DNA of 49,680 bases. It comes from Gemmatimonas sp. Lineage in GTDB: Bacteria; Gemmatimonadota; Gemmatimonadetes; Gemmatimonadales; Gemmatimonadaceae. Within the stretch, counting starts at the first letter, position 1. Every line of letters starts with the position of its first letter. Positions 1,675-23,934 of the stretch are shown piece by piece. The translations under genes and the position numbers were made by a program. The stretch is taken from assembly GCA_011390885.1 (NCBI GenBank), contig JAABRO010000020.1, positions 1 to 49,680 on the forward strand. Reading direction: 5' to 3'. The notes under the pieces were generated by a model that was not told where the DNA came from, did not search any database, and saw nothing but the letters and a program-made list of their open reading frames with translations.

Positions 1675-3132
1675 TTAAGCGCCCACGCCCTGCACCGCGC
1701 GACGCGATGCGAGCACGTGATCGCGCGTCACTTCGGCGTCGCCCAGTTCGCGCGCGTCCTTCTCGGCCGCGTCGCGCAGGCGCTTCGCCACCGAGATGCG
1801 GATGAGCACCGGCTGCGACTCGCACAGCTCGTCGAGCAGCGCCTTGGCATCGTCGCTCCACGGCAGCTCCTGGTGCAGGCGGCTCGGCGTGGCGTCGATC
1901 TTGTCCATGTCCGTGCCCAGCGGCAGGATGTGGAAGAGCGCATCGAACAGCTGGTTGCACACTTCCTGGATGAGATACGTGGCGCCGGCGTAGCCCATGA
2001 ACGGCGTGCCCGTGTGCCGGCGCACGATCGCGCCGGGGAACGACGCGGGAATGTACATGGCGCGCGAGCCGCTCTCGGCCAGGTACATGCGCTCGTTGTA
2101 GCTGCCGAACATGATGAGTGGCGGCTTCTCCTTGATCGCCGCGCGCACCGCCTGATTGTCGGGCTTCACACCGGGACGGCGCGCGAAGCTGAACGTGCAG
2201 GGCAGCCCCATCTCCGTTTCGAGGAAATGGCGAATGCCGCGCGCGTGCGTTTCGTTGGCCACGATGGCGAAGCTGGCCGTGCCGAAGAAGTCCTGCGTGA
2301 CCGAGCGCCACAGGTCCCACAGCGGCTTGATCGTGGTGTGCTTCTCGCGCTCGATGAACGGCTCCGGATCGAGACCGAGCAGCTCGCCCAGCGTGCGCAG
2401 GAACTTGGTGGTGCTGTGCAGGCCGATCGGCGCCTGCAGGAACGGCACTTCGAGATCTTCGCACAGCATGCGCCCGAACTCGCGGTACATGCAGATGTTC
2501 ACGTCGGCATCGACGAGGCGCGGCACGTCCTGCAGGTGGCTGCCGAGCGGAAACACCATGTTGATCTCGGCACCGATGCCTTCCACCAGCCGGCGCATCT
2601 CGGCCAGGTCGCTCCACGTGTTGAAGTAGCCGTAGATGGGACCGATGATGTTCACGCGTGGCTTGTCGCCGGGCTGGCGCTCGCGCTTCTTCGGGCGCAC
2701 GCCCTTCTTGAGGCCGTACTCCGTCCACAGCCAGTACATGGCGCGGTTCGCGGCCTGCCACTGGTCTTCGTCGATCGTGCGCGGCAGGAAGCGCTGGATG
2801 TTCGTGCCTTCGGGCGTCACGCCACCGCCGATCATCTCGGCGATGGAGCCCGTCACGACCACGGCGGGCAGTTCGGGATCGAGCGTGCGATGCGCGCGGC
2901 GCATGGCGCCTTCGGTGCCGGTCTGGCCGAGCTCCTCTTCGCCCAGGCCGGTGACCACGATGGGCAGCTCGTGCGGCGGCAGCGCGTCGGTGTAGTGCAG
3001 CACCGAGGTGACCGGCAGGTTCTCGCACCCCACCGGTCCGTCGATCACGACCTGCATGCCCTTGATCGCGGTGAACACGTACACCGCGCCCCAGTAGCCG
3101 CCCGCGCGGTCGAGGTCCAGAATCAGCGTCAT
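1675..3132 (-). CDS. bchZ: Chlorophyllide a reductase subunit Z
   Basis: 485 residues. One half of the catalytic BchYZ component of chlorophyllide a oxidoreductase, the nitrogenase-like enzyme that reduces ring B of chlorophyllide a to give the bacteriochlorin. Recognisable by the N-terminus [20 protein letters not shown], the conserved cysteine in [11 protein letters not shown] (C36), the [16 protein letters not shown] region and the C-terminal DHVLASRR segment. C36 matches the cysteine known to contribute to the BchYZ iron-sulfur cluster. ATG 3132 overlaps the bchY stop by four bases (ATGA), so translation is probably coupled. A much longer in-frame open stretch upstream is only a shadow inside bchY. 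Last gene of the crtF-bchCXYZ run; a terminator hairpin, not puf genes, follows. Confidence 0.97.
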
Positions 3133-4811
3133 ACCATCGCCTCGGCCTTGCGCTTCTTGTTGAGCTTCTCGATGTGGCGCTTGTAGTGCTCGCGGAACTC
3201 CGGGCGATCCTGCGGGACTTCCTCCCACACGCCGGCGTTGTAGCCGCTGCCCACGTCGCCGAAGAACGACTTCATCTCGTCGAAGCGATGCTTGTTGGCC
3301 ATCGCCGTGTTCACCACCATGCCGAGCGAGCCGGCGCCGGCGGGGCCGAAGAGCGGACGCGCCGAGATGAGATTGGTGAAGTAGAGCGACGGAATGGTGA
3401 GTTCCTTGGCCTTCTGCACCACCGGCGTGGTGCCGATGGCGAGGTCGGGCTGGAACTCCTGCATGGCGGCGATGTCCTGCTCGAGCGACGCGCGGAACTG
3501 CACGTGCACGCCCTTGGCCTCGAGCCACTCGCGGTCGGCGTCGCTGAAGCGCGTGCGCGGGCAGGCACTGCCCACGTAGCGCACATCGGCGCCGCTCTCG
3601 ATGAGCAGGCGCGCCACGAGCAGCTCCGAGCCCTCGTAGCCGCTGAGCGTGATGCGCCCCTTGATCGGCACGGTGGAGAGTGCGCCCTTGATGGCGGGCA
3701 GCACGCGGTTCTTGGTGGCGTCCACCAGGTCGCGCTTCACGTTGGCCATGTCGCCGATGGCGTCGAGCCAGGCGGCCGTGCCGTCGTAGCCCACGGGGCC
3801 CGAGCCCACGATGGGGCGACCGGCGGCCTCGAACTCGCGGAACGACGCCGTATAGAACGGGTGAATGGCGGCCACGCCCACGCAGTCGAGCGCGGCGTAC
3901 AGCTCGCGCCATTCGCGCGTGGGCACGACGGGGCCGGCGGCGAGGCCGAGTCCGTCGAGCAGCATGCCGATGCCGACGGGGTCGGCGGGGAACATCTCAC
4001 CCACGAGCGTGACGGTGGGCTTCTGCGCCTTGCCGCCGCGCGGCGCCTGCACGGGGCCGGCTTCGGCTTCGGTGCGCGCGTACTTGAGCATCGCACCGGC
4101 GAGCACGTCCTTGGCCTCGGCGTGCGTGGGCACGCCGAAGCCGGGCACGTCGATGCCGATGATGCGCACGCCGTTGATCTCCTTGGGGAGGATCTGCAGC
4201 GGCACGCCCGACGCGGTGGGGACGCACAGGTTGGTGATCACGATCGCGTCGTAGAGCGCCGGATCGGCCATCTCGTGCACGGCGTCACGGATGTCCTCGA
4301 ACAGCTTGCCGGTGACGAGCGATTCGGAGTTGAAGGGCACGTAGCCCACGGTGCGCCGCGCGCCGTAGAAGTGCGACGTGAACGTGAGGCCGTACACGCA
4401 GCAGGCGCTGCCGCTGAGGATCGTGGCGGTGCGGCGCATGCGCAGTCCCACGCGCAGCGAGCCGAACGCGGGACACATGCTCTGCGGCTGATCGTGCGGA
4501 CCCTTGGGGTAGTCGGCCGCGTAGCGATCGAGCGTGTCGCTCTTGCCGGCCGCGCGCGCGGCGGCCAGCATCTCGTCGGCGCCCGCGTGGCAGCCGAGAC
4601 CGTCCTGCGTGGTGGCGGCCACGTTGATGGAGTTCGCGTCGACCACGGGGAGGGGCTTGCCGCTCACGCCGGTGGCTGCGGCCCCTTCGCTCGTCGCGCT
4701 CGCCCCGGGGCCGCACCCCATGCCGCCGGGCTGGTCGGCATCGTTCACCATCGGGCTTGCCGCGGCGTCGTCGTACACGACCTCGCCGCTGGTCTTCGTG
4801 TCGGGAGTCAT
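3129..4811 (-). CDS. bchY: Chlorophyllide a reductase subunit Y
   Basis: 560 residues. Partner of BchZ in the catalytic component of chlorophyllide a oxidoreductase. Conserved pieces seen: [12 protein letters not shown] (C74), [18 protein letters not shown] (C113), [11 protein letters not shown] (C137/C138), and the C-terminal [20 protein letters not shown]. These cysteines correspond in position to the BchY ligands of the iron-sulfur cluster in purple bacteria; which of 137/138 serves cannot be told here. The first about 60 residues (alanine/glycine rich, with GGMGCGPG) form an extension that looks poorly conserved. It starts 10 bp after the bchX stop and overlaps bchZ by four bases, so the three reductase genes are one transcription unit. 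Confidence 0.97.
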
Positions 4812-4821
4812 GCGTCGCGTC

Positions 4822-5823
4822 TCAGACGGAATCGTAGACGACTTCGAGCGTGGGCTTGACCACGTCGTCCTTGCCGCACATGTCGAACATGGTGGCCGGC
4901 TCGAGCACGAAGTCGCGCCCGGTGGTCTCGGCCGAGAACAGGTCGAGCAGCGCGTCCATCGTGAGCGGCTTCGGACGCACCGGCGGCGCTTCGGCGACGT
5001 TGGTGGCGAGCTCCGCGAACAGCGGGCCCCACTGTCCCTCGGGGAAGCCGATGATCTCGTAGTTGGCGCTCTTGCGGCGAATGTCCTCGTGCTGCGGCAC
5101 CTTCGCGAGCACCGGGATCGCGGCCTTCTCGGCGAACTTCGCCGCCTCGCCGGTGCCGTCGTCCTTGTTGATCACCATGCCGGCCACGCCCACGTTGCCG
5201 CCGAGCTTGCGGAAGTATTCCACGGCGTTGCAGACGTTGTTGGCCACGTACAGCGACTGCATGTCGTTGGACGCCACCACGATGACCTTCTGGCACATGT
5301 CACGCGCGATCGGCAGGCCGAAGCCGCCGCACACCACGTCGCCGAGGAAGTCGAGCAGCACGAAGTCGAAGCCCCAGTCGTGGAAGCCGAGCTTCTCGAG
5401 GATCTCGAAGCCGTGGATGATGCCGCGTCCACCGCAGCCGCGTCCCACTTCGGGGCCGCCGAGTTCCATGGCGAACACGCCGCCGCGCTTGAAGCAGACG
5501 TCGCCGATCTTCACCTCTTCGCCGGCCAGCTTCTTCTTCGAGCTGACGTCGATGATGGTGGGGCAGGCCTTGCCGCCGAAGAGCAGCGAGGTGGTGTCGC
5601 TCTTGGGATCGCAGCCGATGAGCAGCACCTTCTTGCCCTGCTGCGCCATCATGTACGAGAGGTTGGCGAGCGTGAAGCTCTTGCCGATGCCACCCTTGCC
5701 GTAGATCGCGATGATCTGCGTTTCCTTGGTGACGGGGCCCGTATGCACCTGTTCGGGCTCGCTGTCGGCTTCGGCGCGCACGTTGCTGTGGAGTTGGTGC
5801 AGGGCGGAGGCGTTGTCACTCAT
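4822..5823 (-). CDS. bchX: Chlorophyllide a reductase iron protein X
   Basis: 333 residues. ATP-dependent reductase component that feeds electrons to BchYZ; homologous to nitrogenase iron protein NifH and to BchL. A P-loop is at residues 42-49 (GKGGIGKS), a switch region at LIGCDPKSDTT, and the two conserved cysteines for the intersubunit [4Fe-4S] cluster are in GRGCGGRGI and ARDMCQKV. The N-terminal 35 residues are a variable tail. Start ATG 5823 overlaps the bchC stop (ATGA). Longer frames upstream are shadows within bchC. Confidence 0.97.
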   Translation of the reverse strand: MSDNASALHQLHSNVRAEADSEPEQVHTGPVTKETQIIAIYGKGGIGKSFTLANLSYMMAQQGKKVLLIGCDPKSDTTSLLFGGKACPTIIDVSSKKKLAGEEVKIGDVCFKRGGVFAMELGGPEVGRGCGGRGIIHGFEILEKLGFHDWGFDFVLLDFLGDVVCGGFGLPIARDMCQKVIVVASNDMQSLYVANNVCNAVEYFRKLGGNVGVAGMVINKDDGTGEAAKFAEKAAIPVLAKVPQHEDIRRKSANYEIIGFPEGQWGPLFAELATNVAEAPPVRPKPLTMDALLDLFSAETTGRDFVLEPATMFDMCGKDDVVKPTLEVVYDSV

Positions 5824-6761
5824 GCGGCGGAGCTCCAGTCGAGGATCATCTTGACGCACTCGGGATCGGTGAACGCGGTCACGTAGGCGGCGTCGGCGTG
5901 CGCCGCTTCGCGCCGGTGGGTAATGAGGCCGTCGAGGTCGAGCGTGCCGCTGTTGGCCAGCTCGGCGACGGCCACGAGGTCGCCCGGTGCCCACTGCGCT
6001 GCCACGGTGAGTGTGGCCTCGCGCAGGAAGGCGGGCGGAAACACGAAGGAGACCGGCTCGTGGTAGAAGCCCGCGAGCACGATGGTGCCCTGCGGCTTGA
6101 GCCGGCCGATGAGGGTGTCGAGCAGGCCGTTGGCGCCGCTGACTTCCTGGATGCACTGATAGGTGGTGCCCACGTCGTCATCGGGGTGCACCACGCGGTA
6201 GCCGGCGGCGCCTTCCATGCGAATGGGGTTCACCTCCCACACGGTGGGCGCGGGCCCGCCGAGCACGAGCGTGAGGCGCGCGATGAGCCGACCCAGCGCG
6301 CCGTGCCCCACGATGAGATCGGGGAGCGGCCGCTTGCCCACGCCGAGCGCATGATAGGCGGTGGCGGCGAGGGCGAAGAGCACCCCCTTCTCGCCGACGG
6401 CATCGGTGATGGGGACGGTGCGGGCTCCCGGCACGACGACCCGCGCGGCCTGCCCGCCGAAGAGTCCGCGCGCGCCTTCGAAGCCCTTGGAGCCGGCGAT
6501 GAACACCTGCTGGCCCACGGTGCGTCCGGAGGTGGGGCCGGCCTCGATGATCTCGCCGACCGCTTCGTAGCCGGGCACGAGCGGATAGCCGAGGCCGGGG
6601 AAGGGCGGCATGGTGCCGGTATATAGAAGGCGCTCGGTGCCGGTGCTGATGCCGGACCAGCGGATGGCGACCACGACGTCTTCGTCAGCGGGCGCAACGA
6701 GGGAAAGTCGACGCAGCGCGAGCGTTTCGGGCTGCTCGAACACGACGGCCAACGTGTCCAC
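5820..6761 (-). CDS. bchC: 3-hydroxyethyl-bacteriochlorophyllide a dehydrogenase
   Basis: 313 residues from GTG 6761 (VDTLAVVFEQPE), the start that matches the family and has an AGAGG site a few bases upstream. BchC oxidises the 3-hydroxyethyl group to the 3-acetyl group of bacteriochlorophyllide a. It is an MDR-superfamily dehydrogenase: N-terminal GroES-like part with ISTGTERLLYTG and PGYEAVGEI, then a nucleotide-binding fold with GHGALGRL. The catalytic zinc ligands of classic alcohol dehydrogenases are not evident, as is usual for BchC. An in-frame ATG at 6836 would place the start inside the operator region and is rejected. bchC has its own promoter region, then overlaps bchX by four bases. 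Confidence 0.95.
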   Translation of the reverse strand: MDTLAVVFEQPETLALRRLSLVAPADEDVVVAIRWSGISTGTERLLYTGTMPPFPGLGYPLVPGYEAVGEIIEAGPTSGRTVGQQVFIAGSKGFEGARGLFGGQAARVVVPGARTVPITDAVGEKGVLFALAATAYHALGVGKRPLPDLIVGHGALGRLIARLTLVLGGPAPTVWEVNPIRMEGAAGYRVVHPDDDVGTTYQCIQEVSGANGLLDTLIGRLKPQGTIVLAGFYHEPVSFVFPPAFLREATLTVAAQWAPGDLVAVAELANSGTLDLDGLITHRREAAHADAAYVTAFTDPECVKMILDWSSAA

Positions 6762-6817: not shown

Positions 6818-6861
6818 TGTAAACTGAACGTGACACCTCGCTGTGTCAATAAATCCCGACA
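6818..6861 (-). promoter_or_regulatory. Tandem PpsR/CrtJ-type operators of bchC
   Basis: Two perfect TGT-N12-ACA palindromes: 6818-6835 and 6844-6861, exactly 8 bp apart. This is the known recognition sequence of PpsR/CrtJ, the aerobic/light repressor of photosynthesis genes, and the 8-bp tandem arrangement is that described for the bchC promoter of Rhodobacter capsulatus. Reading toward bchC, TTGACA (complement of 6844-6849) falls within the distal palindrome and fits a -35 box; the proximal palindrome would then cover the -10 region. The -10 hexamer itself is weak. Confidence 0.85.
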
Positions 6862-6943: not shown

Positions 6944-8176
6944 TCAGGTCTCGGCGACGATCAGCCCCGTCTGGATCGGGTAGCGCGTGGCGATCTGACG
7001 GGTCTTGCGGAAGCCGGCGTCGTGGATCATGGCGCGGAGTTCGTCGGGGCGACGGGCGCGCCCCTTGCCCATGGCCATGAGGTAGAAGTTGAAGTAGGCG
7101 TCGCCCACCGGCTCGGCGGAGCGGGCACCCGACATGGCTTCGGCCACGAGCAGCGTGCCGCCGCGTGGCAGGGCGGCGTGCACCTTGCGCAGGAGGCGCT
7201 GCACCGACTCGTCGTCGTGGTCGAGCAGCACACGCACGAGCGAGATCACGTCGGCCCCGACGGGGAGCGCGTCCGCGTGGAAGTTGCCGCCCACCACCGA
7301 CGCGCGGTTGCCGAGGCCGTCCCGCCGCAGGCGGGACTCCGCACGCACGGTCACGGCCGGCAGGTCGAACAGCATGAGGCGGAGCTTGTCGTGCCGCCGT
7401 CCGGCCGTGGAGAGGAAGACGCCCTCGCCGCCGCCCACGTCGAGCAGGCACTGGTGGCGGGAGAGGTCGTAGTGGTCGAGCACGTCGGAGGCGAGGGGCG
7501 GCAGCGTGGCCGCCATCATCTCGGAGTACGAGGCCACGCGGGCGTCATCGATGGCCTGGGGGCGCGGCGCGTCGGCGTAGGGCCAGTAGCGCGAGAGCTC
7601 GGTGCGGAAGTCGCTGCCGGAGCGGAGCAGGGTGACCGGATCGGCGAGGTCGCCGTAGGCCATGGCGTGGTGGCGAATGAGGGCCACGAGCCCCGCGTTG
7701 CCGACCATGGGAGCGCCGAGTGGTCCGAGGGCGATGCGGCCGCCGCGGCGCCGGGCGAAGAGCTGGAGCGAGCAGGCGGCGCGAATGAGTCGCTCGGTGG
7801 CCACCGGCGGCAGGCCGGTCTTCGCGCCGATCTGTTCAGCCGTGAGGGGTCCCTTGGCCAGCAGCTCGAAGAGGTCGAGCTCCACGCAGGCGTACAGCGT
7901 CTGCGTGTACACGAAGCCGGCCATGAGGTCGAACAGGGCGCGGCTGCGGCGCAGGGCCACGGGGCGGGTGAGCGGGAACTTCGCCGCCCAGCGCTGGAAG
8001 CCTTCGGTGGCCACGAACGCGTTCCATCGGTCGCGCCAGCGCTCCCAGAAGGGGGCATCGGCAAGGGTGCCGACGCGCGGGTCGGCGAGGCGGACGTCGC
8101 GGGCGGAGGCCGCGTCGGTCGCGGCGGCCGGGAGCACGTCCGCCATCGAGCGGTCGGGGGGCGTCACCGCGGACAC
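6944..8176 (-). CDS. crtF: CrtF-type carotenoid O-methyltransferase
   Basis: 410 residues. CrtF methylates the C-1 hydroxyl of acyclic carotenoids (hydroxyneurosporene/demethylspheroidene type) with S-adenosylmethionine, giving the methoxy carotenoids of purple bacteria. N-terminal winged-helix dimerisation region (ELLAKGPLTAEQIGAKTGL), then a Rossmann methyltransferase with SAM motif LLDVGGGEGVFL and LFDLPAVTVRAE. The C-terminus (DAYFNFYLMAMGKGRARRPD) is like CrtF rather than BchU. The position immediately before bchC, same strand, is the classic purple-bacterial crtF-bchCXYZ order and supports the call. The exact start is uncertain; MADV at residue 11 is an alternative. A promoter-operator lies 116 bp upstream. 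Confidence 0.88.
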   Translation of the reverse strand: MSAVTPPDRSMADVLPAAATDAASARDVRLADPRVGTLADAPFWERWRDRWNAFVATEGFQRWAAKFPLTRPVALRRSRALFDLMAGFVYTQTLYACVELDLFELLAKGPLTAEQIGAKTGLPPVATERLIRAACSLQLFARRRGGRIALGPLGAPMVGNAGLVALIRHHAMAYGDLADPVTLLRSGSDFRTELSRYWPYADAPRPQAIDDARVASYSEMMAATLPPLASDVLDHYDLSRHQCLLDVGGGEGVFLSTAGRRHDKLRLMLFDLPAVTVRAESRLRRDGLGNRASVVGGNFHADALPVGADVISLVRVLLDHDDESVQRLLRKVHAALPRGGTLLVAEAMSGARSAEPVGDAYFNFYLMAMGKGRARRPDELRAMIHDAGFRKTRQIATRYPIQTGLIVAET

Positions 8177-8268: not shown

Positions 8269-8309
8269 ACGTTAGTGCGCCCCCCGAACAGTGTCAAGCG
8301 AAGTGTACA
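8269..8309. promoter_or_regulatory. Divergent crtF/bchI promoter with one PpsR/CrtJ site
   Basis: Toward crtF (minus): TTGACA (complement of 8292-8297), a 17-bp spacer, then TAACGT (complement of 8269-8274), a good housekeeping-type promoter. A perfect TGT-N12-ACA palindrome spans 8292-8309 and overlaps that -35 box. Toward bchI (plus): TGTACA at 8304-8309, a 17-bp spacer, and TAATTA at 8327-8332 form a weaker candidate. One bound repressor could therefore block both directions. Confidence 0.75.
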
Positions 8310-8339: not shown

Positions 8340-9371
8340 ATGCGACATGTCTATCCATTCAGTGCCATCGTGGGGCAGGACGAGATGAAGCTCGCCCTGC
8401 TGCTCACCGCCGTGGACCCGTCGATCGGCGGCGTCATGGTGTTCGGGGACCGCGGGACCGGCAAGAGCACGGCCGTGCGCGGACTGGCCGGCCTGCTGCC
8501 GCCGATGACCGTCGTGGAGGGGTGCCGCTACGGCTGCGCGCCGCCGGCCGAGGGGGCGATGTGCGGCTACTGCCAGCGCGGCCACCCGGGGCACGAGAAG
8601 ATCCACAAGGGGAAGGCGCCCGTGCCCGTGGTGGACCTGCCGCTTGGCGCCACGGAAGACCGTGTGGTGGGCGCGCTCGACCTGGAGAAGGCGCTCACCA
8701 CGGGCGAGAAGGCGTTCGAGCCCGGGCTGCTGGCGCGCGCGAACCGCGGCTTCTTGTATGTGGACGAGGTGAACCTGCTCGAGGACCATCTCGTGGACCT
8801 GCTGCTCGACGCGGCCGCGACGGGGGAGAACGTGGTGGAGCGCGAAGGTGTGAGCATTCGCCATCCGGCGCGGTTCGTGCTCGTGGGCAGCGGCAATCCG
8901 GAGGAGGGCGAACTGCGGCCGCAGCTGCTCGACCGCTTCGGCCTCGCGGTGGACGTGAAGACGCCCACCGACCTCGCCATGCGCATCGAGGTGATCCGCC
9001 GTCGCGATGCGTTCGATCGCGATCCGGCCGGCTTCGTGCACCATTGGGAGAAGGCCGAGAAGGCGGTGCGTCGGCGCATCGTGAAGGGACGCGAGCACCT
9101 GGCCGTGGCCACGGTGCCCGACGCGGTGCTCGAGCGCGCGACGGCGCTGTGCGCCAAGCTCGGCACCGACGGCCTGCGCGGTGAGCTGACGCTGCTGCGC
9201 ACGGTGCGCGCGTACGCGGCGCTCGAGGGGCACGACGAGGCCACGCTCGACGACCTGCGTCGCATCGCGCCGCTGTGCCTGCGCCACCGCCTGCGCCGCA
9301 ACGTGCTCGATGAAGCGAGCAGCACGACGCGCGTGGAGCGGGCGCTCGACGAACTGTACGCAGCTGCGTGA
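8340..9371 (+). CDS. bchI: Magnesium chelatase ATPase subunit I
   Basis: 343 residues. AAA+ motor subunit that, with BchD and BchH, inserts Mg2+ into protoporphyrin IX, the first committed step of bacteriochlorophyll synthesis. Walker A is at residues 36-44 (GDRGTGKST), Walker B in [11 protein letters not shown], and the arginine/sensor region in [20 protein letters not shown]. Four cysteines at 62, 66, 75 and 78 sit in the insertion typical of purple-type BchI. Start ATG 8340 matches the family ([17 protein letters not shown]). No ribosome-binding site precedes it and the best -10 ends only 7 bp upstream, so the transcript may be leaderless. The stop overlaps the bchD GTG start by four bases. 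Confidence 0.96.
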
Positions 9372-11233
9372 CGGCCGTGACCGCCGCGCCGATGATCGCC
9401 TCGGTTGACGCGCCTCTGCCCGCGTGGAATGACGCGGCGCTGATCGCGGCGTTGCTGGCGATCGATCCCACGGGGCTGGGCGGCGTGGTGCTCGACCACC
9501 CGTCGCACGAGGCGGCGCGCGAGTGGCTCGAGCTGGTGCGCGCGTGCCTGCCCGCTGGTGCGCCCATGCGCCGCGTGCCGGCGAGCGTGACGGAAGATCG
9601 CCTGTTCGGCGGGGTGGACCTCGCGGCCACGCTCACCACGGGCCGGCTCGTGGTGGAGCCTGGCGTGCTCGCCGCGGCCGATGGCGGCGTGGTGGTGCTG
9701 CCGATGGCCGAGCGCGCGAATGCGAGCGTGCTCGCGGGGCTCGTGGAGGTGCTCGATGCGCACGCGGTACGCGTGGAGCGCGAGGGGATCGCGGCGCGGC
9801 ACGAGGCGCGCGTGGCGCTCGTGTGCTACGACGAAAGTGCCGACGATGAATCGCTGCCGGCAGCGCTCACCGATCGTCTCGCGTTCCGACTGATCGGCCT
9901 GCACGTGTACGCGGTGAGTGCGCGCACCCGCGCATCGCTGACGCAGGCAGTGGGCGCGGCGCGTGCACGGCATGCGCAGGTGGCCGACGGCGGGGACTGG
10001 CTGGGCGCGGTGTGCGAGCTGGCGAGTGCGTACGGCATCAGCTCGCTGCGGGCACCGCTGCTGGCGTGGCGCGCGGCGCGGGCCCACGCGGCGCTGCACG
10101 GACGCGATGTGGTGACCGAAGACGATGCCACGGTGGCCTCGCGCCTCGTGCTGCTGCCGCGCGCGGTCACGATGCCGGCACCGCCTCCGCCGCCAGAGGG
10201 CGAGGAGCAGGAGCCCGCGCCGGACCAGCCGCCCCCCGACGAACCGCCGCCGCCTCCGCCGGAGGCGCAGCAGGAGCCGCAGGAGCAGCCGGACACGCCC
10301 CCGGAGCCGCCCGAGACGCCGCCCGACCAGGACGAAGAGTCGGACGATGCGCGTCCGCCGTCGGACATCCTGCGGGATGCGGTCGCCGCGTCGCTGCCGC
10401 CGGGCATGCTCGAGCAGCTGCTCGCGCGCAGCGCCGCGATGCGCGGGGTACAGGGGCGCGTGGGTGAGGAAACGATGAGCCTGCTGCGCGGGCGTCCGCG
10501 CGGGTCGCGGCAGGGTGAACCGCGTGGCGGTGCCCGGCTGCACCTGCTCGAGACGCTGCGTACGGCGGCGCCGTGGCAGCGCGTGCGCGGGCGTGTGGAT
10601 CGCTCGCAGCGTGTGGCGCTGCGCAAGGACGACTTCCGGGTGCGGCGCTTCATCGAGCGCACGGGCACGACGGTGATCTTCGTGGTGGACGCGAGCGGCT
10701 CGTCGGCGCTGGCGCGGTTGAGCGAGGCGAAGGGGGCGATCGAGCTGCTGCTCGCGGAGAGCTACGCGCGTCGCGACCGGGTGAGCCTGATCGCGTTCCG
10801 TGGCACCACGGCGGAGACGCTGCTCCCGGCCACGCGCGCGCTGGCGCGCGCGAAGAAGGTGCTGGCGGCGCTGCCTGGTGGCGGCGGCACGCCGATGGCG
10901 ACGGCGATCGACGCAGCGGTGCTGGCGGGACTCGCGGCGCAGCGTGCGGGATCGTCGCCGCTGGTGGTGTTTCTCACCGATGGGCGCGCGAACATCGCGC
11001 GCGATGGCACGCCGGGCCGTGGCAAGGCGGGGGAGGATGCGCTGGCGAGCGCGCGCGCGTTCGCGCAGTCGCGGGTGTCGGCGCTGTTCGTGGACACGTC
11101 GCTTCGCCCCGATGCGACCACGCGCGCGCTGGCCGCGGCCATGGGCGCGCGGTATGTGCCGCTGCCGAGTGCAAACAGCGACGCGTTGCGCGGGCTGGTG
11201 CGCACCGTGCAGCAGCAGGCGGCGGGCACATGA
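9368..11233 (+). CDS. bchD: Magnesium chelatase subunit D
   Basis: 621 residues from GTG 9368, overlapping bchI (GTGA). BchD links the BchI ring to BchH. The N-terminal about 270 residues are a degenerate AAA module without an intact Walker A. Next comes a proline/glutamate-rich linker around residues 272-325 made of [11 protein letters not shown]-like runs. The C-terminal integrin-I/VWA domain has a MIDAS motif DASGS at 441-445, followed by GGGGTPM and FLTDGRANI. Length and order fit BchD. The stop overlaps the puhE start by four bases, so bchI-bchD-puhE form one coupled operon. Confidence 0.95.
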
Positions 11234-12123
11234 GTGACGGCGTGAGCGTGGCGCGTGATGCGCTCGATGCGGTGGCCGCGCCGGCGGCCCGGCCGTCGCT
11301 GCTCGACCGGCTGCTGCTGCGCGCGTCGTCGCAGCAGGTGATCGCCGTGCGCGAGACGCCGCTGCGCGTGCTGCTGCGGTCGGTCACGTTCGTGGTGCTG
11401 TACTGGTGGCTGGCCACGGGCGCGATCTTCGCGCTCGAGCGCAGTGCGGCCACGCGCGGCGCGGGGCTGGTGCTGGCGATCGCGCTGGGCGCCGTGGGCG
11501 TGCTGCTCATGGTGCGCGCACGCGACGATGCGTCGCCGCTCGGCGCGCGCCGTTCGTTCCTCGGCGGGGCGTTCGTGTGGAGCCTCGTGCAGGTGAGCTT
11601 CTACGGCGGCTGGCTGGTGGGGCCGCAAGGGCTGGCGGTGCATGTGCCGGTGCAGCCGCCGTCGCTGCCGTTCGCCACGCAGGCGGTGATCAGCATGCTC
11701 TGGTACCAGCTCGCGATGCTGTTCGCGTTGTGGCTCGCGTTCAGCATCACCTGGGACCGCGTGAACCGCACGGGCTGGTGGGCGCTCGCGGTGTTCTACA
11801 CCACGCACCAGCTGGCGTGCATCAGCATCTTCCTGGGCGTGGAGAATCCGGGGCGCGGGTTCTTTCCCACGGACCTGGTGTTCCTCGAGTCGTACTTCGG
11901 CCCGGCGCGCAACTCGCTGTTCCTGATCTTCTCGATCGCGGCGCTGCTGCTGCTCACGCTGACGCTCACGATCAAGGCGTTGCGCGCCACGATGCCGATG
12001 CGCCGTCAGGCGCTGACGCTGCTCACCGTGCTCGGCACGCTCGGCGTGCTGGAACTGCTGGTGCTGGGGCTCGCGGTGCAGCTCAACCTGTGGGACACGT
12101 TCCTGGAGTTCCGCGGGTACTGA
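11230..12123 (+). CDS. puhE: Photosynthetic complex assembly protein PuhE (DUF3623)
   Basis: 297 residues, integral membrane protein with about six to seven hydrophobic helices. Segments such as [38 protein letters not shown] and the C-terminal [11 protein letters not shown] identify the PuhE/DUF3623 family, found only in purple-type phototrophs and implicated in assembly of light-harvesting/reaction-centre complexes. In many purple bacteria puhE sits in the puhABC-acsF neighbourhood; here it is the third gene of the Mg-chelatase operon, with an ATGA overlap to bchD. The first 55 residues are a family-atypical soluble extension that includes an arginine-rich part before the first helix. Confidence 0.85.
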
Positions 12124-12187
12124 GGGGGCGGGGCGTTCTTCTCGTGCCTGGGCACCGTGGAAGCGCCGCTGGTCTGCGCGTGCGGTT

Positions 12188-12313
12188 TTCGCGTCCTCGC
12201 GTTCCATCGCGCCTTCGCGTCCTGCCGTTCTCTCTGCTTCCGATGTGCTGCCGGCCCGCCGTGCGACCGTAGGTGCGACGGCCGCCAGAACTGCAGGACG
12301 CGAAGGCGCGATG
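12188..12313. repeat. Non-coding inverted/tandem repeat after puhE
   Basis: Gap of about 256 bp between puhE (stop 12123) and the converging permease gene (stop 12380), with no gene seen. It contains a perfect 21-bp inverted repeat: 12205-12225 (CATCGCGCCTTCGCGTCCTGC) and 12293-12313, separated by 67 bp; allowing one mismatch the arms extend further. TTCGCGTCCT is also repeated directly at 12188 and 12214. It could fold as a long stem separating the convergent units. Confidence 0.7.
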
Positions 12314-12379
12314 TGGCGCGATGGCGCGAACACAGCATGTGGCGATCAGTTCGTCGCTCGGTGCCGACGAAATCCCCGC

Positions 12380-13687
12380 CTATTCGTGCCGCAGTGCTTC
12401 GATCGGGTCGAGACGGGCGGCGCGGCGCGCGGGGACCATGCCGAAGACGATGCCGATGCCGACCGAGACGGCCACGGCGATCGCCGTGAGGCCGAGCGGG
12501 ACGCCGGTCTCCACGTCGAGCAGCATCGTGACCACGCGGCCGGTCACGATGCCGAGCAGGATGCCGATGACGCCGCCGATGCCGGTGAGGGTGGCTGCCT
12601 CCACGAGGAACTGCGAGAGGATGTCGCGCTTCGTGGCGCCCACCGCCTTGCGCAGGCCGATCTCGCGCGTGCGGCTCGTGACCGACACCATCATGATCGC
12701 CATCACGCCGATGCCCCCCACGAGCAGCGCGACGGCGGAGAGCACGATCATCACGAGGAAGAACACGCCGGTGAGGCTGTTGAACGTGTCGAGGATCTGG
12801 TCCTGCGTCACGATGTCGAACGAGTTCCTGTCGGCCGGGCGCAGGCCGCGTGAGGCGCGCAACTCGATCGTGACGGCCTCCTGTGCGGTGGCGACCGACA
12901 CGCCCTCGCGCGGCTTCACCGGAATCCACAGCGCCGCGGTGCGGTCGATCGTGAACGAGCGGTCGAGGAAACGGAACGGGACCACGCCGCCGGTTTCCTG
13001 TCCGGGGGGCGCAAAGATGTTGCCCGGTTCCTGCCACACGCCGATGACCTGCGCGGGGCGACCGCCAATGCGGATCCACTGTTCGAGCGGGTTCACCTCG
13101 CCGAACACGCGGCGGGCCACGTTCTCCTGAAGGATCGCCACCGCGGCGCCCGAAGCGATCTCCGACCGCAGGAACCATCGGCCGCTGAGCAGCTCGCCGC
13201 CCTGGATGATGGGAAACCCCTCGTCGGCGCCGAACATCGCCACGGCCTGCGTGCGCACGCCGTCGTACTCGACGCGCGCGAGCGTCTGGGACCAGAGGCC
13301 GGCGTAGCCGACCTCCGGCAGCCGGCGAAGGCGCACCGCCTCGTCCTCGCTGAGATCCGGCCGGATGCGCACGTAGGCCGGCGGGTTCTGCGGATTGATC
13401 GGCGTCTGCGAGAACACCTTGAACACGTAGAACGTGCTCGGTCCTGCCACCTCGATCGTGCTCACGATCTGGTCGCGAATGCCCTGCACGATCGAGGCCA
13501 TCGTCATGACCGTGGCGACGCCGATCACGACTCCTAGAATGGTGAGCGCCGAGCGCAGGCGTGCCGACGCAATCGCCCGGAGCGCGATCCCGACGTTGTG
13601 GCGGAACGCACGCGGGTGCCACATGCTCACGACGGCGGCCGCGAGCGCCCGCGCGTCGTCGGAACCGGAGCCGGACGGGCGTGCCAC
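12380..13687 (-). CDS. FtsX/MacB-type ABC permease (type B, third pair)
   Basis: 435 residues from GTG 13687; ATG 13624 (MWHPRAF) is an alternative start. One transmembrane helix near the N-terminus (LRSALTILGVVIGVATVM), a periplasmic MacB-type domain, then three C-terminal helices with the FtsX core SVTSRTREIGLRKAVGATKR and the type-B ending FGMVPARRAARLDPIEALRHE. It carries no ATPase domain. It follows directly on the type-A permease stop (TGA then GTG) and probably forms a heterodimer with it. Unlike the other two type-B copies, it lacks the CDGT-x-DTC loop. Likely served by the single ATPase gene at 20222. Substrate unknown. Confidence 0.88.
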   Translation of the reverse strand: MARPSGSGSDDARALAAAVVSMWHPRAFRHNVGIALRAIASARLRSALTILGVVIGVATVMTMASIVQGIRDQIVSTIEVAGPSTFYVFKVFSQTPINPQNPPAYVRIRPDLSEDEAVRLRRLPEVGYAGLWSQTLARVEYDGVRTQAVAMFGADEGFPIIQGGELLSGRWFLRSEIASGAAVAILQENVARRVFGEVNPLEQWIRIGGRPAQVIGVWQEPGNIFAPPGQETGGVVPFRFLDRSFTIDRTAALWIPVKPREGVSVATAQEAVTIELRASRGLRPADRNSFDIVTQDQILDTFNSLTGVFFLVMIVLSAVALLVGGIGVMAIMMVSVTSRTREIGLRKAVGATKRDILSQFLVEAATLTGIGGVIGILLGIVTGRVVTMLLDVETGVPLGLTAIAVAVSVGIGIVFGMVPARRAARLDPIEALRHE

Positions 13688-14932
13688 TCAGTCCGGCCGC
13701 ATGGCGGCGATCGGGTCGAGCCGCGCCGCGCGGGCCGCCGGGTACACGCCGAAGATGACGCCGACGCCGGCACCCAGGCCCAGCGCGAGTGCAACGCTCC
13801 ACGAGGTCACGCGCGCCGGCAGGGGCGAGAAGGCGGCGATGAGCTCCGCCAGCAGCCACCCGCCGAGCACGCCGAGCACGCCGCCGGCCAGCGCGAGCAT
13901 CACCGACTCGGCGAGGAACTGCCGGCGCACGTCGGACGCCGTGGCGCCGAGCGCCTTGCGGATGCCGATCTCGTGCGTGCGCTCGCTCACCGACATGAGC
14001 ATGATGTTCATGATCACGATGCCGCCCACAACGATGCCGATGCCCACGACGGCCGGGATCACCGCGAAGAGCACCTGCGTGAGCTGGCGCCAGAACGCGA
14101 CGAGCGCATCGGAGGTGGAGAGCGAGAAGTTGTTCTCCTCAGCCGGCCGCAGCCCGCGCGCGAGCCGCATGGCCTCCTCGGCGCGCAGCATGGCGGGCTC
14201 GACCTCCGCGGCGTCGGCGAGCTTGACGGAGATCGTGGTGGTGTTCCGTCGGCCCCAGATACTCTCGAACGCGGTGATGGGGATGAGCACGAAGCCGTCG
14301 AACGACTGGCCGAGCACGCGTCCCTTGCGCGCCGTCACGCCGATCACCTCGAAGCGCCGGCCCTGCAGGCGGACCTCCTGGCCGATCGGGTCGACCGTCT
14401 CGAACAGGTTCTCGGCGACCTGCGCGCCGATCACGATGACCGGCCGGCGCTCGCGCACGTCGAGCTCCGACATCGGGCGTCCCTTCTCGAAGCGGTAGTC
14501 CTGCACTACCTGATATTCCGGCGTCACCCCGAACACGAGGGCGTCGCCCACGGCGCGGTTGCGCCAGATCACGTCGGACGTGGGCGTGGGCCAGCCGCTC
14601 TGCAGCGAGATGGCCTGCGCGTCGGGGAGGGCCGCGCGCACGGCGACCACGTCCGCCTCGCCGATGCGAGGCCAGCGCTGCGTGCGACGCACCGCCTCGT
14701 CGTCGAAGAGGCCAATGGAGACGGGCGACCGCCTGACCTGAAATGCGTTCATGCCGATCATGGCATCGGCGATGTTCTCCTTCACGTACGCGTTCATGCC
14801 CGAGATGATCGCGACCACGGCCACGAGAAAGCCGACGGACACGATGATGCCGAGCAGCGTGAAGAACGAGCGCAGCAGGTTGGCGCGCAGCTGGCCGAAC
14901 GCGGAGCGCAGGACATCCTCGGGGCGCATCAT
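13688..14932 (-). CDS. FtsX/MacB-type ABC permease (type A, third pair)
   Basis: 414 residues. N-terminal helix in the context LRSFFTLLGIIVSVGFLVAV, a MacB-type periplasmic domain (VIGVTARKGRVLGQSFDGF), and three C-terminal helices around SVSERTHEIGIRKALGATAS, ending FGVYPAARAARLDPIAAMRPD. Type A is defined by the motif FLIAVVSI(V)xG after the first helix, here FLVAVVAIISG. This is the most diverged A copy. It is separated from the upstream permease pair by 234 bp with a hairpin, so it may have its own promoter, but it is adjacent to and same-strand with the rest of the export operon. Confidence 0.88.
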   Translation of the reverse strand: MMRPEDVLRSAFGQLRANLLRSFFTLLGIIVSVGFLVAVVAIISGMNAYVKENIADAMIGMNAFQVRRSPVSIGLFDDEAVRRTQRWPRIGEADVVAVRAALPDAQAISLQSGWPTPTSDVIWRNRAVGDALVFGVTPEYQVVQDYRFEKGRPMSELDVRERRPVIVIGAQVAENLFETVDPIGQEVRLQGRRFEVIGVTARKGRVLGQSFDGFVLIPITAFESIWGRRNTTTISVKLADAAEVEPAMLRAEEAMRLARGLRPAEENNFSLSTSDALVAFWRQLTQVLFAVIPAVVGIGIVVGGIVIMNIMLMSVSERTHEIGIRKALGATASDVRRQFLAESVMLALAGGVLGVLGGWLLAELIAAFSPLPARVTSWSVALALGLGAGVGVIFGVYPAARAARLDPIAAMRPD

Positions 14933-15051
14933 CCCGGCAATTTAGCCAGCACCGTTCCGGGCAGCATCGGGACAGCGCCGCCCCGGGGGCGGGAAGCGTG
15001 GGCTGGCCTTGACGCAACTGCAACAGAGCGCGGAAAGAACTGAAGATGAAC

Positions 15052-15105
15052 CGAAGAAATGAAGAAGAGCCCTTCTTGGTTCTTCTTCACTTCTTCATTT
15101 CTTCG
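15052..15105 (-). terminator. Hairpin between permease pairs
   Basis: 16-bp inverted repeat: 15052-15067 (core GAAGAAATGAAGAAG) and 15090-15105, with a 22-nt loop. On the minus strand the right arm is followed by a pyrimidine-rich stretch, so it can act as a terminator or attenuator after the second permease pair. The rest of the 234-bp gap 14933-15166 shows no gene. Confidence 0.55.
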
Positions 15106-15113
15106 TCTTGCTC

Positions 15114-15137
15114 GGTTGCGGTTGCGGTTGCGGTTGC
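15114..15137. repeat. GGTTGC hexanucleotide repeat, four copies
   Basis: Four exact tandem GGTTGC units between the permease stop at 15167 and the hairpin at 15052-15105. A short simple repeat that may vary in copy number between strains; no function is visible. Confidence 0.8.
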
Positions 15138-15166
15138 TCCCCGACCGGCCCAAACGCCCGTCTCCC

Positions 15167-16432
<1,266 letters not shown>

Positions 16433-16438
16433 GATCGC

Positions 16439-17677
<1,239 letters not shown>

Positions 17678-17685
17678 GCGGTTCG

Positions 17686-18921
17686 TTATTCGTGGCGGAG
17701 CGCGACCACCGGATCGAGCCGGGAGGCGCGCAGGGCAGGCAACATGCCAAAAAGCACGCCAGTAATGACGCTGGCCGCAAGGGCTGCCACGACGGCGAGC
17801 GGCGGAACCGAGGCCGCAATGGGGGTGGCCGACCGGATCGCCACCGCACCGAGCCAGCCGCCCACGAGCCCGATCACCACACCGATGCCGGTGAGCGTGA
17901 TCGCCTCCACGAGGAACTGCCACAGGATCGTGACCCGCGTGGCCCCGAGCGCCTTGCGCACCCCGATTTCGCGGGTGCGCTCGGTGACCGAGATCATCAT
18001 GATGGCCACCACACCCACGCCGCCCACGAGCAGTCCCACCGCGGAGAGCGCGATCATGACCAGGAAGAAGACGCCGAAGATGCTGTTGTAGGTCTCGAAC
18101 AGCTTGTCCTGCGTGATGATCGCGAATGACGACTCCTCGGTGGGGCGCTGGCCACGGATGCCCCGCAGGGTGGCCGTGACCTGGTCCACCATGACGTCAC
18201 GCTCCACCGACGGCCGCGGCTTGACCGCCAGCCCGATGTTGTTCATGCGCGCGCCCAGGTGCCGCACGGCCGACTGCACCGGGATCACGGCCTTGGGGCG
18301 ATCACCACCACTCAGGAACGAGGCGTTGTCCTTGTACACGCCGATGACCGTGAAGGGCCTGCCGTTGAGCTGGATCTCCCGGTCGATCGGATCGATGCCA
18401 GCGAACAGGCGCTCGGCCATGATGGTGTTGATCACGGCCACTCGCGCGCCGCTCTCCGCTTCAGCGCCCGTGAAGGCGCGGCCCGGCCAGACGTCCGGCG
18501 CGCTCAGCTCCGGCCACTCGGCCGAGTAGGCCTCGATGGAGGAGGACTGCAGGCGCGTGCTGCGATAGCTCACGTCGGCGCTCCAGTCCAGGCGCATGCC
18601 CACCGCCAGCGCCTCGGGGAGCGCCTGCAACGCCTTCACCTCGCTTGGCCGGATCGGCGGGTTGGACAGCCACTTGCACGTGTCGCCCGTCCCGTCGCAG
18701 TTCTCGAACGAGATGGGGTAGCGCGAAACGAAGAACGTGGTCGGGCCGGCCGACTCGAACTCCTTGGCCACGCTGAGGTTGATGCCGTGCACGGCAGACG
18801 CGATCATGACGACGACGAACACGCCGATGGCCACGCCCATGATCGTGAGGGCGGCGCGGACGCGATTGCCGCGCAGCGAGCCGAGGGCGATGAGCACGCC
18901 CTCCTTGATCGTGGAGAACAC
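17686..18921 (-). CDS. FtsX/MacB-type ABC permease (type B, first pair)
   Basis: 411 residues, GTG start, 4 bp after the type-A stop. First helix in VRAALTIMGVAIGVFVVVMI; periplasmic domain with the cysteine loop CDGTGDTC; FtsX core SVTERTREIGVRKALGATRV; ending FGMLPALRASRLDPVVALRHE. Strong similarity to the type-B copy at 15167, including the cysteine loop and the following NPPIR, points to duplication of an A/B gene pair. No ATPase domain. Confidence 0.9.
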   Translation of the reverse strand: MFSTIKEGVLIALGSLRGNRVRAALTIMGVAIGVFVVVMIASAVHGINLSVAKEFESAGPTTFFVSRYPISFENCDGTGDTCKWLSNPPIRPSEVKALQALPEALAVGMRLDWSADVSYRSTRLQSSSIEAYSAEWPELSAPDVWPGRAFTGAEAESGARVAVINTIMAERLFAGIDPIDREIQLNGRPFTVIGVYKDNASFLSGGDRPKAVIPVQSAVRHLGARMNNIGLAVKPRPSVERDVMVDQVTATLRGIRGQRPTEESSFAIITQDKLFETYNSIFGVFFLVMIALSAVGLLVGGVGVVAIMMISVTERTREIGVRKALGATRVTILWQFLVEAITLTGIGVVIGLVGGWLGAVAIRSATPIAASVPPLAVVAALAASVITGVLFGMLPALRASRLDPVVALRHE

Positions 18922-18925
18922 GGGC

Positions 18926-20173
18926 CTACTCCTGCCGCAGGGCGGTGATGGGGTCGAGGCGCGAGGCGCGGCTCGCCGGATAGACGCCGGAGATGATGCC
19001 CACGCCGGCCCCCACGAGCACGCCGAGCGCGACCGACCAGGGCGCGACCACGGTGGGCAGCGGCGTGACCTGCCGCATCACGAAGGCGAGGAAGACGCCG
19101 AGCGCCACGCCGGCCATGGCGCCAACGGCGCCGAGCGTGGACGACTCCACGAGGAACTGCGCCAGCACGTCGCGGCGGCGCGCGCCCAAGGCCTTGCGCA
19201 GTCCGATCTCCGAGGTGCGTTCGGCGACGGCCACGAGCATGATGTTCATGATCACGATGGCGCCCACCACCAGCCCGAAGGCCGGGAGGGCGACGCCGGC
19301 GAGCACCAGATAGCCCTGCAGCTTGTCCCAGAACGCGAGCGCACTGTCGGACGTTTGCAAGGAGAAGTCGTCCTTCTGCGCCGGGCGCAGCTGGTGCTGC
19401 ATGCGCATGACCTGGCGCGTGGCCTCCATCGCCTCGGTCATCTCCGCCTCGGAGGGCGACTGGATGATCACGGCGTCGATCATGTTCGCTTCGGCATTGA
19501 AGAGCCGCCGGGCGGGTGCCTGCAGGGGCACGTAGGCCACGTTGTCGAACGACATGCCGAAGGCGCTGCCCTGCGATTCGGCGATGCCGACCACGGTGTA
19601 GGGGAGGCCGGCGATACGCACCTCGCGCCCGATCGGGTTGAGCGAGGGGAAGAGCCGCTCGACGACGTCGGGGCCGATCACGGCCACCGGCGTGCCCATG
19701 GCGTACTCCTGCGGCGTGAAGAGGCGGCCGTCGCTCACCTCGAGCGCCTTGATGTCGAAGTACGCGCCTTCCACGCCCGTCACGCGCACCGAGCGCGGTC
19801 CGCCGCCGAACGACGACGTCATGTTGATGGGCGCATCGGCGACCACCGCGTAGCGCGTGCCGGCGGGCAGCGCCTCGATGACGGCGGGCACCTCGTAGTC
19901 GCGCAGGCGCTTGCGGCGCTGGTATTCCTGCCAGGTGGCCGCGTCCACGTCGCCCATGTTGATGTTGGGGCGATGGCGCAGCTCGAAGCTGTTGATGGCG
20001 ATGAGCTTGCCGACGAGGTCGTCCTTCAGGTAGCGCCCCATGCCGTTCACGATGGACACGACGGCGATGAGAAACATGACCCCGATGCATACGCCCATGA
20101 GCGTGAAAGCGCTCTTGAGTTTCTGCGTGCGGATCGTGCCGAGGGCGAGTCGGATGGCTTCGAAAGTGTTCAC
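18926..20173 (-). CDS. FtsX/MacB-type ABC permease (type A, first pair)
   Basis: 415 residues, GTG start. First helix in KLKSAFTLMGVCIGVMFLIAV, MacB-type periplasmic domain with YFDIKAL and TVVGIAESQGSAFG, three C-terminal helices around VAERTSEIGLRKALGARRRD, and the ending SGVYPASRASRLDPITALRQE. It is the first permease after the ATPase gene (48 bp gap), so this pair is probably the original one. Together with 17686 it would make the membrane part of a MacB-like mechanotransmission exporter. Confidence 0.9.
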   Translation of the reverse strand: MNTFEAIRLALGTIRTQKLKSAFTLMGVCIGVMFLIAVVSIVNGMGRYLKDDLVGKLIAINSFELRHRPNINMGDVDAATWQEYQRRKRLRDYEVPAVIEALPAGTRYAVVADAPINMTSSFGGGPRSVRVTGVEGAYFDIKALEVSDGRLFTPQEYAMGTPVAVIGPDVVERLFPSLNPIGREVRIAGLPYTVVGIAESQGSAFGMSFDNVAYVPLQAPARRLFNAEANMIDAVIIQSPSEAEMTEAMEATRQVMRMQHQLRPAQKDDFSLQTSDSALAFWDKLQGYLVLAGVALPAFGLVVGAIVIMNIMLVAVAERTSEIGLRKALGARRRDVLAQFLVESSTLGAVGAMAGVALGVFLAFVMRQVTPLPTVVAPWSVALGVLVGAGVGIISGVYPASRASRLDPITALRQE

Positions 20174-20221
20174 AGCGAGCGGGGGCAGGGGACGGGCCGT
20201 GCGGCCCGCCCGAGTGAACGA

Positions 20222-21046
20222 TCAGTCGTGCGCGACTTTCGTGGTGGCGTGGGCGATGCCCACCCGGTCCACGAACTTCTCGCGACGCTCATCGCTTTCC
20301 ACGACACCGTCACGCAGCACCACGACGCGGCGCGCGTGGGCGGCGATGTCGGGTTCGTGCGTGACCATGACGACGGTCTGGCCCTGGCGGGACAGTTCCT
20401 CGAACACGCGCATGATTTCCTGCGACGTGGTGGAGTCGAGGTTGCCCGTGGGTTCGTCGGCGAGCAGGATGGACGGCCGGTTCACGAGCGCGCGCGCAAT
20501 GGCGACGCGCTGACGCTGACCGCCCGAGAGCTCGTTGGGACGGTGGTGCAGGCGCGGCCCGAGCTGCACGGAATCGAGCGCCTCGGTGGCGCGACGCTTG
20601 CGCTCGTCGGCGGGGATGCCGGCGTACACGAGCGGCAGCTCGACGTTCTGCAGCGCCGTGGCGCGCGGGAGCAGGTTGAACGTCTGGAAGACGAAGCCGA
20701 TCTCCTTGTTGCGCACGCGGGCGAGCGCATCGTCGCTCATGGCCGACACGAGCTGGCCGTTGAGCCAGTACTCGCCGCCATTGGGCGAGTCGAGACAGCC
20801 GATCAGGTTCATGAGCGTGGACTTGCCCGAACCGGACGGGCCCATGATGGCCACGTATTCGTTGCGCCCGATCGCGAGGTCGACGCCACGCAGGGCGCGC
20901 ACCACCTCGCCGCCCATGTCGTACTCGCGCTTGAGGCCGCGGGCCACGATGACCCAGTCCTTGCCCGGCGCGACGCCGGGCGCGGCCACGACCGCGCGGC
21001 GCTCGCCGGTGGTGCTGATGCCAATGTCGTCGATGGTGTTCGTCAC
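20222..21046 (-). CDS. MacB-type ABC transporter ATPase
   Basis: 274 residues, GTG start 2 bp after the adaptor stop. Complete ATPase: Walker [11 protein letters not shown]-loop [20 protein letters not shown], signature [15 protein letters not shown], Walker [14 protein letters not shown]-loop VTHEPDIA. Belongs to the LolD/MacB/FtsE group that powers FtsX-fold permeases. It is the only ATPase in the operon and so likely serves all six permeases. The first about 30 residues are an unconserved tail before the domain ([15 protein letters not shown]). Confidence 0.95.
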
Positions 21047-21048
21047 GG

Positions 21049-22326: not shown

Positions 22327-22344
22327 TGTGAAGGGATCCCGGGG

Positions 22345-23826: not shown

Positions 23827-23934
23827 GAGCAAGATAGGAGGAGTGGGTGGGTCACTGAGGCGTACGGGGGGCGCTCGGCAACGGTTTCAACACCGGGCGA
23901 ATCGGTCCGGACCGCCGGGCCGGTCGTCGGGCCG

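Follow-up and report, generated by a model that had tools for sequence, protein, structure and literature searches.

A probable CrtJ/PpsR tandem operator upstream of bchC in a Gemmatimonadaceae genome, and a PpsR with phenylalanine in place of the redox cysteine

Introduction

The bchC promoter of R. capsulatus carries two palindromes, at positions -47 to -30 and -21 to -4, which span the -35 and -10 elements (PMC5362033). Palindromes recognized by CrtJ/PpsR are typically eight nucleotides apart, and oxidation by oxygen of Cys420 in the helix-turn-helix (HTH) of CrtJ has a strong effect on DNA binding (PMC9144470). The PpsR2 proteins of Bradyrhizobium and of wild Rhodopseudomonas palustris lack the HTH cysteine and are controlled by light, not by redox state (PMC4452267, PMC6899989). 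In vitro, the PpsR of Rubrivivax gelatinosus binds palindromes with an 8-bp spacing without redox dependence, whereas binding at a 9-bp spacing is redox-dependent (PMC4452267). A histidine of AerR has been described as a B12 ligand (PMC9144470).

The photosynthesis gene cluster of G. phototrophica responds little to oxygen or light, and a single PpsR site, before bchID-puhE, has been reported in it (PMC11406998). According to another paper, none of the regulatory circuits came with the gene transfer (PMC12817894). The window described here, a stretch of 49,680 nucleotides, comes from a Gemmatimonadaceae genome and contains a pair of palindromes before bchC. This kind of operator is ordinary and well known, but it is newly placed in Gemmatimonadota outside Gemmatimonas.

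The bchC upstream region

Two perfect TGT-N12-ACA palindromes, separated by exactly 8 bp, are located in the crtF-bchC intergenic region (Table 1). Read on the bchC strand from 6861 to 6818, the pair is TGTCGGGATTTATTGACA-CAGCGAGG-TGTCACGTTCAGTTTACA. About 60 bp separate the proximal site from the downstream start codon of bchC, which is likely a GTG at about 6758; the HMM match to bchC begins at 6755. The initial annotation had given both positions and the gap correctly, and had likened the arrangement to that of CrtJ/PpsR at the bchC promoter of purple bacteria. The likeness is borne out, as the palindromes of R. capsulatus bchC have the same geometry (PMC5362033, PMC9144470).

The last six bases of the distal palindrome, TTGACA at 6844-6849, likely represent the -35 element. 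This role is suggested by the analogy with R. capsulatus (PMC5362033) and by the retention of the hexamer in 16 of 16 promoters of genus g4 that no longer have the TGT half. A sigma-70 -10 element was also sought in the proximal palindrome of the window genome, where no convincing hexamer is present at the purple-bacterial spacing. The purple-type TAnnnT (-10) pattern is absent, and thus not conserved, in Gemmatimonadaceae, which makes the placement of the promoter before bchC, and its exact overlap with the pair, uncertain.

Table 1. Probable operator elements and photosynthesis genes in the window
Feature	Position	Strand	Basis and remarks
Distal operator palindrome TGTCGGGATTTATTGACA	6844..6861	-	Sequence and comparison with promoters of relatives
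Tandem operator spacer, 8 bp, CAGCGAGG	6836..6843	-	Sole conserved spacing upstream of bchC
Proximal operator palindrome TGTCACGTTCAGTTTACA	6818..6835	-	Sequence and comparison with promoters of relatives
Third, single PpsR-type site TGTCAAGCGAAGTGTACA, divergent crtF/bchI intergenic region	8292..8309	+	Conserved in relatives of genera g1 and g4
bchC, presumed target, first gene of bchCXYZ	5820..6758	-	TIGR01202, 411 bits; HMM match 5838-6755
bchX, downstream, same operon as bchC	4822..6156	-	TIGR02016, 414.9 bits; the ORF as listed has a mechanical 5' end, which overlaps bchC
bchY	3129..4811	-	TIGR02015, 692.9 bits
bchZ	1675..3132	-	TIGR02014, 791 bits
crtF-like methyltransferase, upstream of and co-directional with bchC (crtF-bchCXYZ order)	6944..8176	-	Named from context and homology; match to the BchU/CrtF methyltransferase model weak
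bchI, start approximate	8352..9371	+	TIGR02030, 511.8 bits
bchD	9368..11233	+	Magnesium chelatase subunit D model, 665 bits

The bchI and bchD genes are divergent from crtF. Both flanks of the bchZYXC-crtF/bchID block (1-1617 and 11234-20173) look non-photosynthetic, and another contig, C22, carries puf, bchFNBH, ppsR and bchG. The photosynthesis cluster therefore seems to be split in this genome. A puf operon at the left end of the window, joining it to C22, was considered and rejected: the ORFs at 3-917 and 916-1617 look non-photosynthetic, and pufL/pufM start C22. Farther to the right, positions 12380-23832 contain an unusual permease expansion, in which six MacB-type permease ORFs stand in a row and precede a single ATPase, an adaptor of the MacA type and a protein of the TolC type.

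Occurrence of the tandem in the genome and in other bacteria

Single TGT-N12-ACA sites carry little information. There are 7 in the window compared to 3.8 expected, and 375 in the genome compared to 324 for a reversed control pattern. As these counts are at background, judgement by single sites was dropped. Pattern searches of the 4.07-Mb genome returned two tandems with a gap of 8 bp and none for the reversed control, where 0.035 would be expected per genome (P of at least two = 6e-4). Permitting any gap from 0 to 30 added only two pairs, with gaps of 18 and 15, and the control gave 2. Both gap-8 tandems precede bacteriochlorophyll genes, one bchC and the other bchG. The initial annotation had named an equal frequency of pairs in non-photosynthesis regions as the outcome that would speak against it; genome-wide, the gap-8 tandem is found only before bch genes.

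The second tandem (C22:26942-26985) is positioned between ppsR and bchG and overlaps the predicted bchG start. Within C22:26935-26990 (L002:1495-1550) the tandem overlaps the predicted ATG, and a TAAACT lies a few bases before this ATG. The bchG transcript may be leaderless, with its start inside the operator. Two overlapping TGT-N12-ACA sites, each with one mismatch, are present in the divergent bchF/aerR region (C22:24393-24426, genome G000) and are a possible further PpsR target.

Among 395 Gemmatimonadota genomes, 42 contain bchC, and 41 upstream regions could be read. A gap-8 tandem with at most 2 mismatches of 12 precedes bchC in 31 of the 41, and any other gap between 0 and 24 occurs in at most 5. 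Perfect bchC tandems were found in the genus of the window, in genera g24 and g34 and in family f5 of the same class. The bchG tandem, at up to 2 mismatches, is present in 25 of 30 Gemmatimonadota.

The same spacing dominates in a set of 83 bchC loci (80 from named genomes and three from plasmids), nearly all of which belong to purple bacteria and 79 of which are not from Gemmatimonadota. A gap of 8 with no more than one mismatch is found in 54 of these loci, and every other gap in 4 or fewer. The bchC operator is present in 22 of 26 proteobacterial genomes with PpsR compared to 1 of 4 without a detected PpsR (Fisher p = 0.03, with small numbers). A few PpsR-bearing genomes lack it (L121, L123, L164 and L175), which speaks against a strict link. 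A record titled Bordetella parapertussis (L124) has a bchC with a perfect tandem operator, and is probably a mislabelled phototrophic betaproteobacterial bin.

The regulator PpsR and its neighbor AerR

The initial annotation had noted that the regulator gene is absent from the window, and had proposed a search of the rest of the genome for a PpsR/CrtJ homolog, the lack of which would have spoken against it. Such a homolog is present in one copy on C22 (C22:25513-26835), with a score of 481.6 bits compared to a curated cut-off of 275.4. The gene order there is bchF<->aerR-ppsR-(tandem operator)-bchG-pucC-bchP-hemA-hemE, followed by hemF, with bchF divergent. The order around ppsR is likewise found in Roseobacter litoralis and Novosphingobium, and is thus a purple-bacterial layout. 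The protein has the domain architecture of PpsR (TIGR02040), namely N-PAS, Q-linker, PAS1, PAS2 and HTH, with the conserved Q-linker residues LQQRLVEAQQAMERDYWRLRH. It aligns to the structure of R. sphaeroides PpsR (4hh2) over residues 27-397. The recognition region NR.[AST]AAE.LG.SRQ.LY.K is common to Gemmatimonadota and proteobacterial PpsR.

A homolog of AerR/PpaA is encoded beside ppsR (C22:24366-25421; B12-binding domain PF02310, E = 3e-19). It retains the E-x-H-x-x-G motif, as E-Q-H-T-L-G, which aligns with E-Q-H-F-L-G of the Roseobacter homolog. The histidine of this motif would correspond to the described B12 ligand. A bacteriophytochrome was also considered as a PpsR partner, but a search of the window genome for phytochrome (PF00360) found none there.

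In Gemmatimonadota, ppsR is present in all 32 bchC-positive genomes tested and in 40 of 42 overall. Full-length orphan PpsR proteins, with neither bchC nor a reaction-centre gene found in the genome, occur at L226 (G155), L228 (G166), L230 (G088), L232 (G328) and L233 (G329), the last two in genomes that are only 82-84% complete. None of these five loci has a cluster bch gene within the stretch inspected. The orphan of G166 is located between an AerR homolog and a phytochrome (PHY/GAF/PAS) gene. A different situation is found in G331, a genus g4 genome of 8 contigs, where locus L227 retains aerR-ppsR-bchG-pucC-bchP-hemA-hemE-hemF and the tandem operator before bchG. Its bchC, its reaction-centre gene and the bchF beside aerR are all missing, and the locus resembles what would be left after loss of a photosynthesis cluster.

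The redox cysteine

Of the PpsR proteins read, all 30 from Gemmatimonadota have Phe at the position of CrtJ Cys420, whereas 22 of 25 from Proteobacteria have Cys there (Fisher p = 2e-12, kinship not being corrected for). These Gemmatimonadota proteins thus lack the HTH cysteine that characterizes redox-sensing PpsR of the CrtJ type, and the PpsR frames of G319, G135 and G150 contain no cysteine at all.

In a tree that did not include the PpsR2 sequences of Bradyrhizobium and R. palustris, the Gemmatimonadota PpsR group with four proteobacterial PpsR that resemble PpsR2, with a joint support of 1.0. Each of the four is encoded in a genome that has a second PpsR copy, and three have Tyr at the Cys420 position. 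Loss of the cysteine after the transfer is therefore unsupported. Because the proteobacterial members of the clade mostly lack Cys too, the Phe substitution may, judging by this tree, predate the transfer.

The initial annotation had suggested that the regulator and its logic came with the genes or were kept afterwards. This is only partly right. The operator, PpsR and its DNA-reading helix are there, but the oxygen-sensing step was probably not kept, given the Phe in 30 of 30 proteins and published work on G. phototrophica in which oxygen did not control these genes (PMC11406998).

Possible mode of regulation and alternatives

The pair is very probably a CrtJ/PpsR operator over the bchCXYZ promoter that was inherited with the photosynthesis gene cluster, because the gap of 8 stands out against all other gaps in both purple-bacterial and Gemmatimonadota loci. 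Binding and repression by PpsR are what we infer from this arrangement. PpsR would most likely occupy the two palindromes as a pair of adjacent dimers, forming a tetramer over both the -35 TTGACA, with which the distal site ends, and the stretch in which the -10 lies. Occupation of both sites would block RNA polymerase and repress bchCXYZ, in analogy to R. capsulatus (PMC5362033). The bchC tandem, the tandem before bchG and the single crtF/bchI site would together constitute a small PpsR regulon.

The oxygen-sensing HTH cysteine is a Phe here, so oxidation of a thiol probably plays no part in gating repression. Since a thiol switch is unlikely with Phe, the AerR motif is kept and no phytochrome was found, a B12 or light input via the B12-binding AerR homolog is the best remaining candidate. 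A more specific proposal, which is tentative and somewhat doubtful, is that Gemmatimonadota received or soon evolved a redox-blind PpsR (Phe for Cys420), which still occupies the ancestral operators of bchC, bchG and bchI, with AerR and not oxygen as its input. If this is true, the redox-blind PpsR, together with half-operator decay in Gemmatimonas, would explain at the molecular level how the photosynthesis genes became free of oxygen control after their transfer, and would overturn the published view of a transfer without regulatory circuits.

The bchC operator of genus g4, which probably includes G. phototrophica, bears on whether the pair is still in use. In all 16 alignable promoters of this genus the distal palindrome no longer has its left TGT, whereas every one of them keeps TTGACA. 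Judging by this alignment, part of the operator has decayed but the presumed -35 box has not. Two further g4 genomes lack the bchC pair. Such losses, and the near absence of an oxygen or light response of the G. phototrophica genes (PMC11406998), agree with a relic that arrived with the cluster, with PpsR no longer controlling bchC in Gemmatimonadota and TTGACA surviving only as a -35 box. This explanation is nevertheless unlikely. Both palindromes are intact to one mismatch in the genus of the window, in g24, in g34 and in family f5. The g4 promoters, too, have preserved the proximal TGT-ACA outside the -35, and in 15 of the 16 it is perfect. Furthermore, the bchG tandem and ppsR are retained as well. 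Missing oxygen control in G. phototrophica fits a redox-blind repressor and a relic operator equally, and it is the conservation outside g4 that favors continued use. Given the small response of G. phototrophica (PMC11406998), the bchC operator could be weakly used.

It is quite improbable that the palindromes are read by some other regulator sharing TGT-N12-ACA. Single sites occur at genome background and the motif alone names no protein, but the gap-8 tandem is restricted to bch genes, with one copy adjoining ppsR. Moreover, its 8-bp spacing is common to purple bacteria in which CrtJ binding has been shown (PMC5362033, PMC9144470), and proteobacterial genomes without a detected PpsR mostly lack the tandem. 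A chance pair, to which the seven single sites of the window would by themselves be no objection, is refuted by the excess of gap-8 pairs over expectation and by the conservation of placement and spacing in relatives and across purple bacteria.

Comparison with known systems

The operator presumed to be controlled by PpsR here resembles that of R. capsulatus bchC in having two TGT-N12-ACA palindromes 8 bp apart, a distal site that ends in a -35-like TTGACA, crtF before bchC and bchXYZ after it. It differs in its Gemmatimonadaceae host, in a proximal palindrome without the TAnnnT (-10) common in Proteobacteria and in a cognate PpsR with Phe for Cys420. Tandem palindromes are shared with the PpsR operators of Rubrivivax gelatinosus (PMC4452267), although the promoters studied there belong to pucB and crtI, and the HTH cysteine (Cys436) is still present in the Rubrivivax protein.

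Absence of the HTH cysteine is a property that Gemmatimonadota PpsR have in common with PpsR2 of Bradyrhizobium and Rhodopseudomonas palustris. However, PpsR2 is the partner of a bacteriophytochrome, whereas the only candidate partner found in the window genome is AerR/PpaA.

The site at 8292-8309 has the same position as the PpsR site reported before bchID-puhE in G. phototrophica, and it matches sites in g4 genomes, including that of G039. This g4 genome is likely G. phototrophica itself. Whereas the published description gives only the one site in the cluster (PMC11406998), G039 also has perfect single sites upstream of bchC and bchG, each with a degenerate partner 8 bp away.

At the level of sequence, phototrophic Gemmatimonadota, a second family of the class among them, have conserved the operators together with PpsR and AerR, which contradicts the statement that no regulatory circuits were conferred (PMC12817894). 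What is added to the known systems is that both operators and regulators came with the transfer and persist in the phototrophs of the phylum, with the redox cysteine uniformly missing from the PpsR proteins read. What differs is a single residue in the DNA-binding domain and, within Gemmatimonas, one of the two halves of the distal operator. Both the half-operator loss in g4 and the Phe for Cys420 fit the published finding that oxygen does not control these genes in G. phototrophica (PMC11406998), and offer a concrete and testable explanation for the missing oxygen response.
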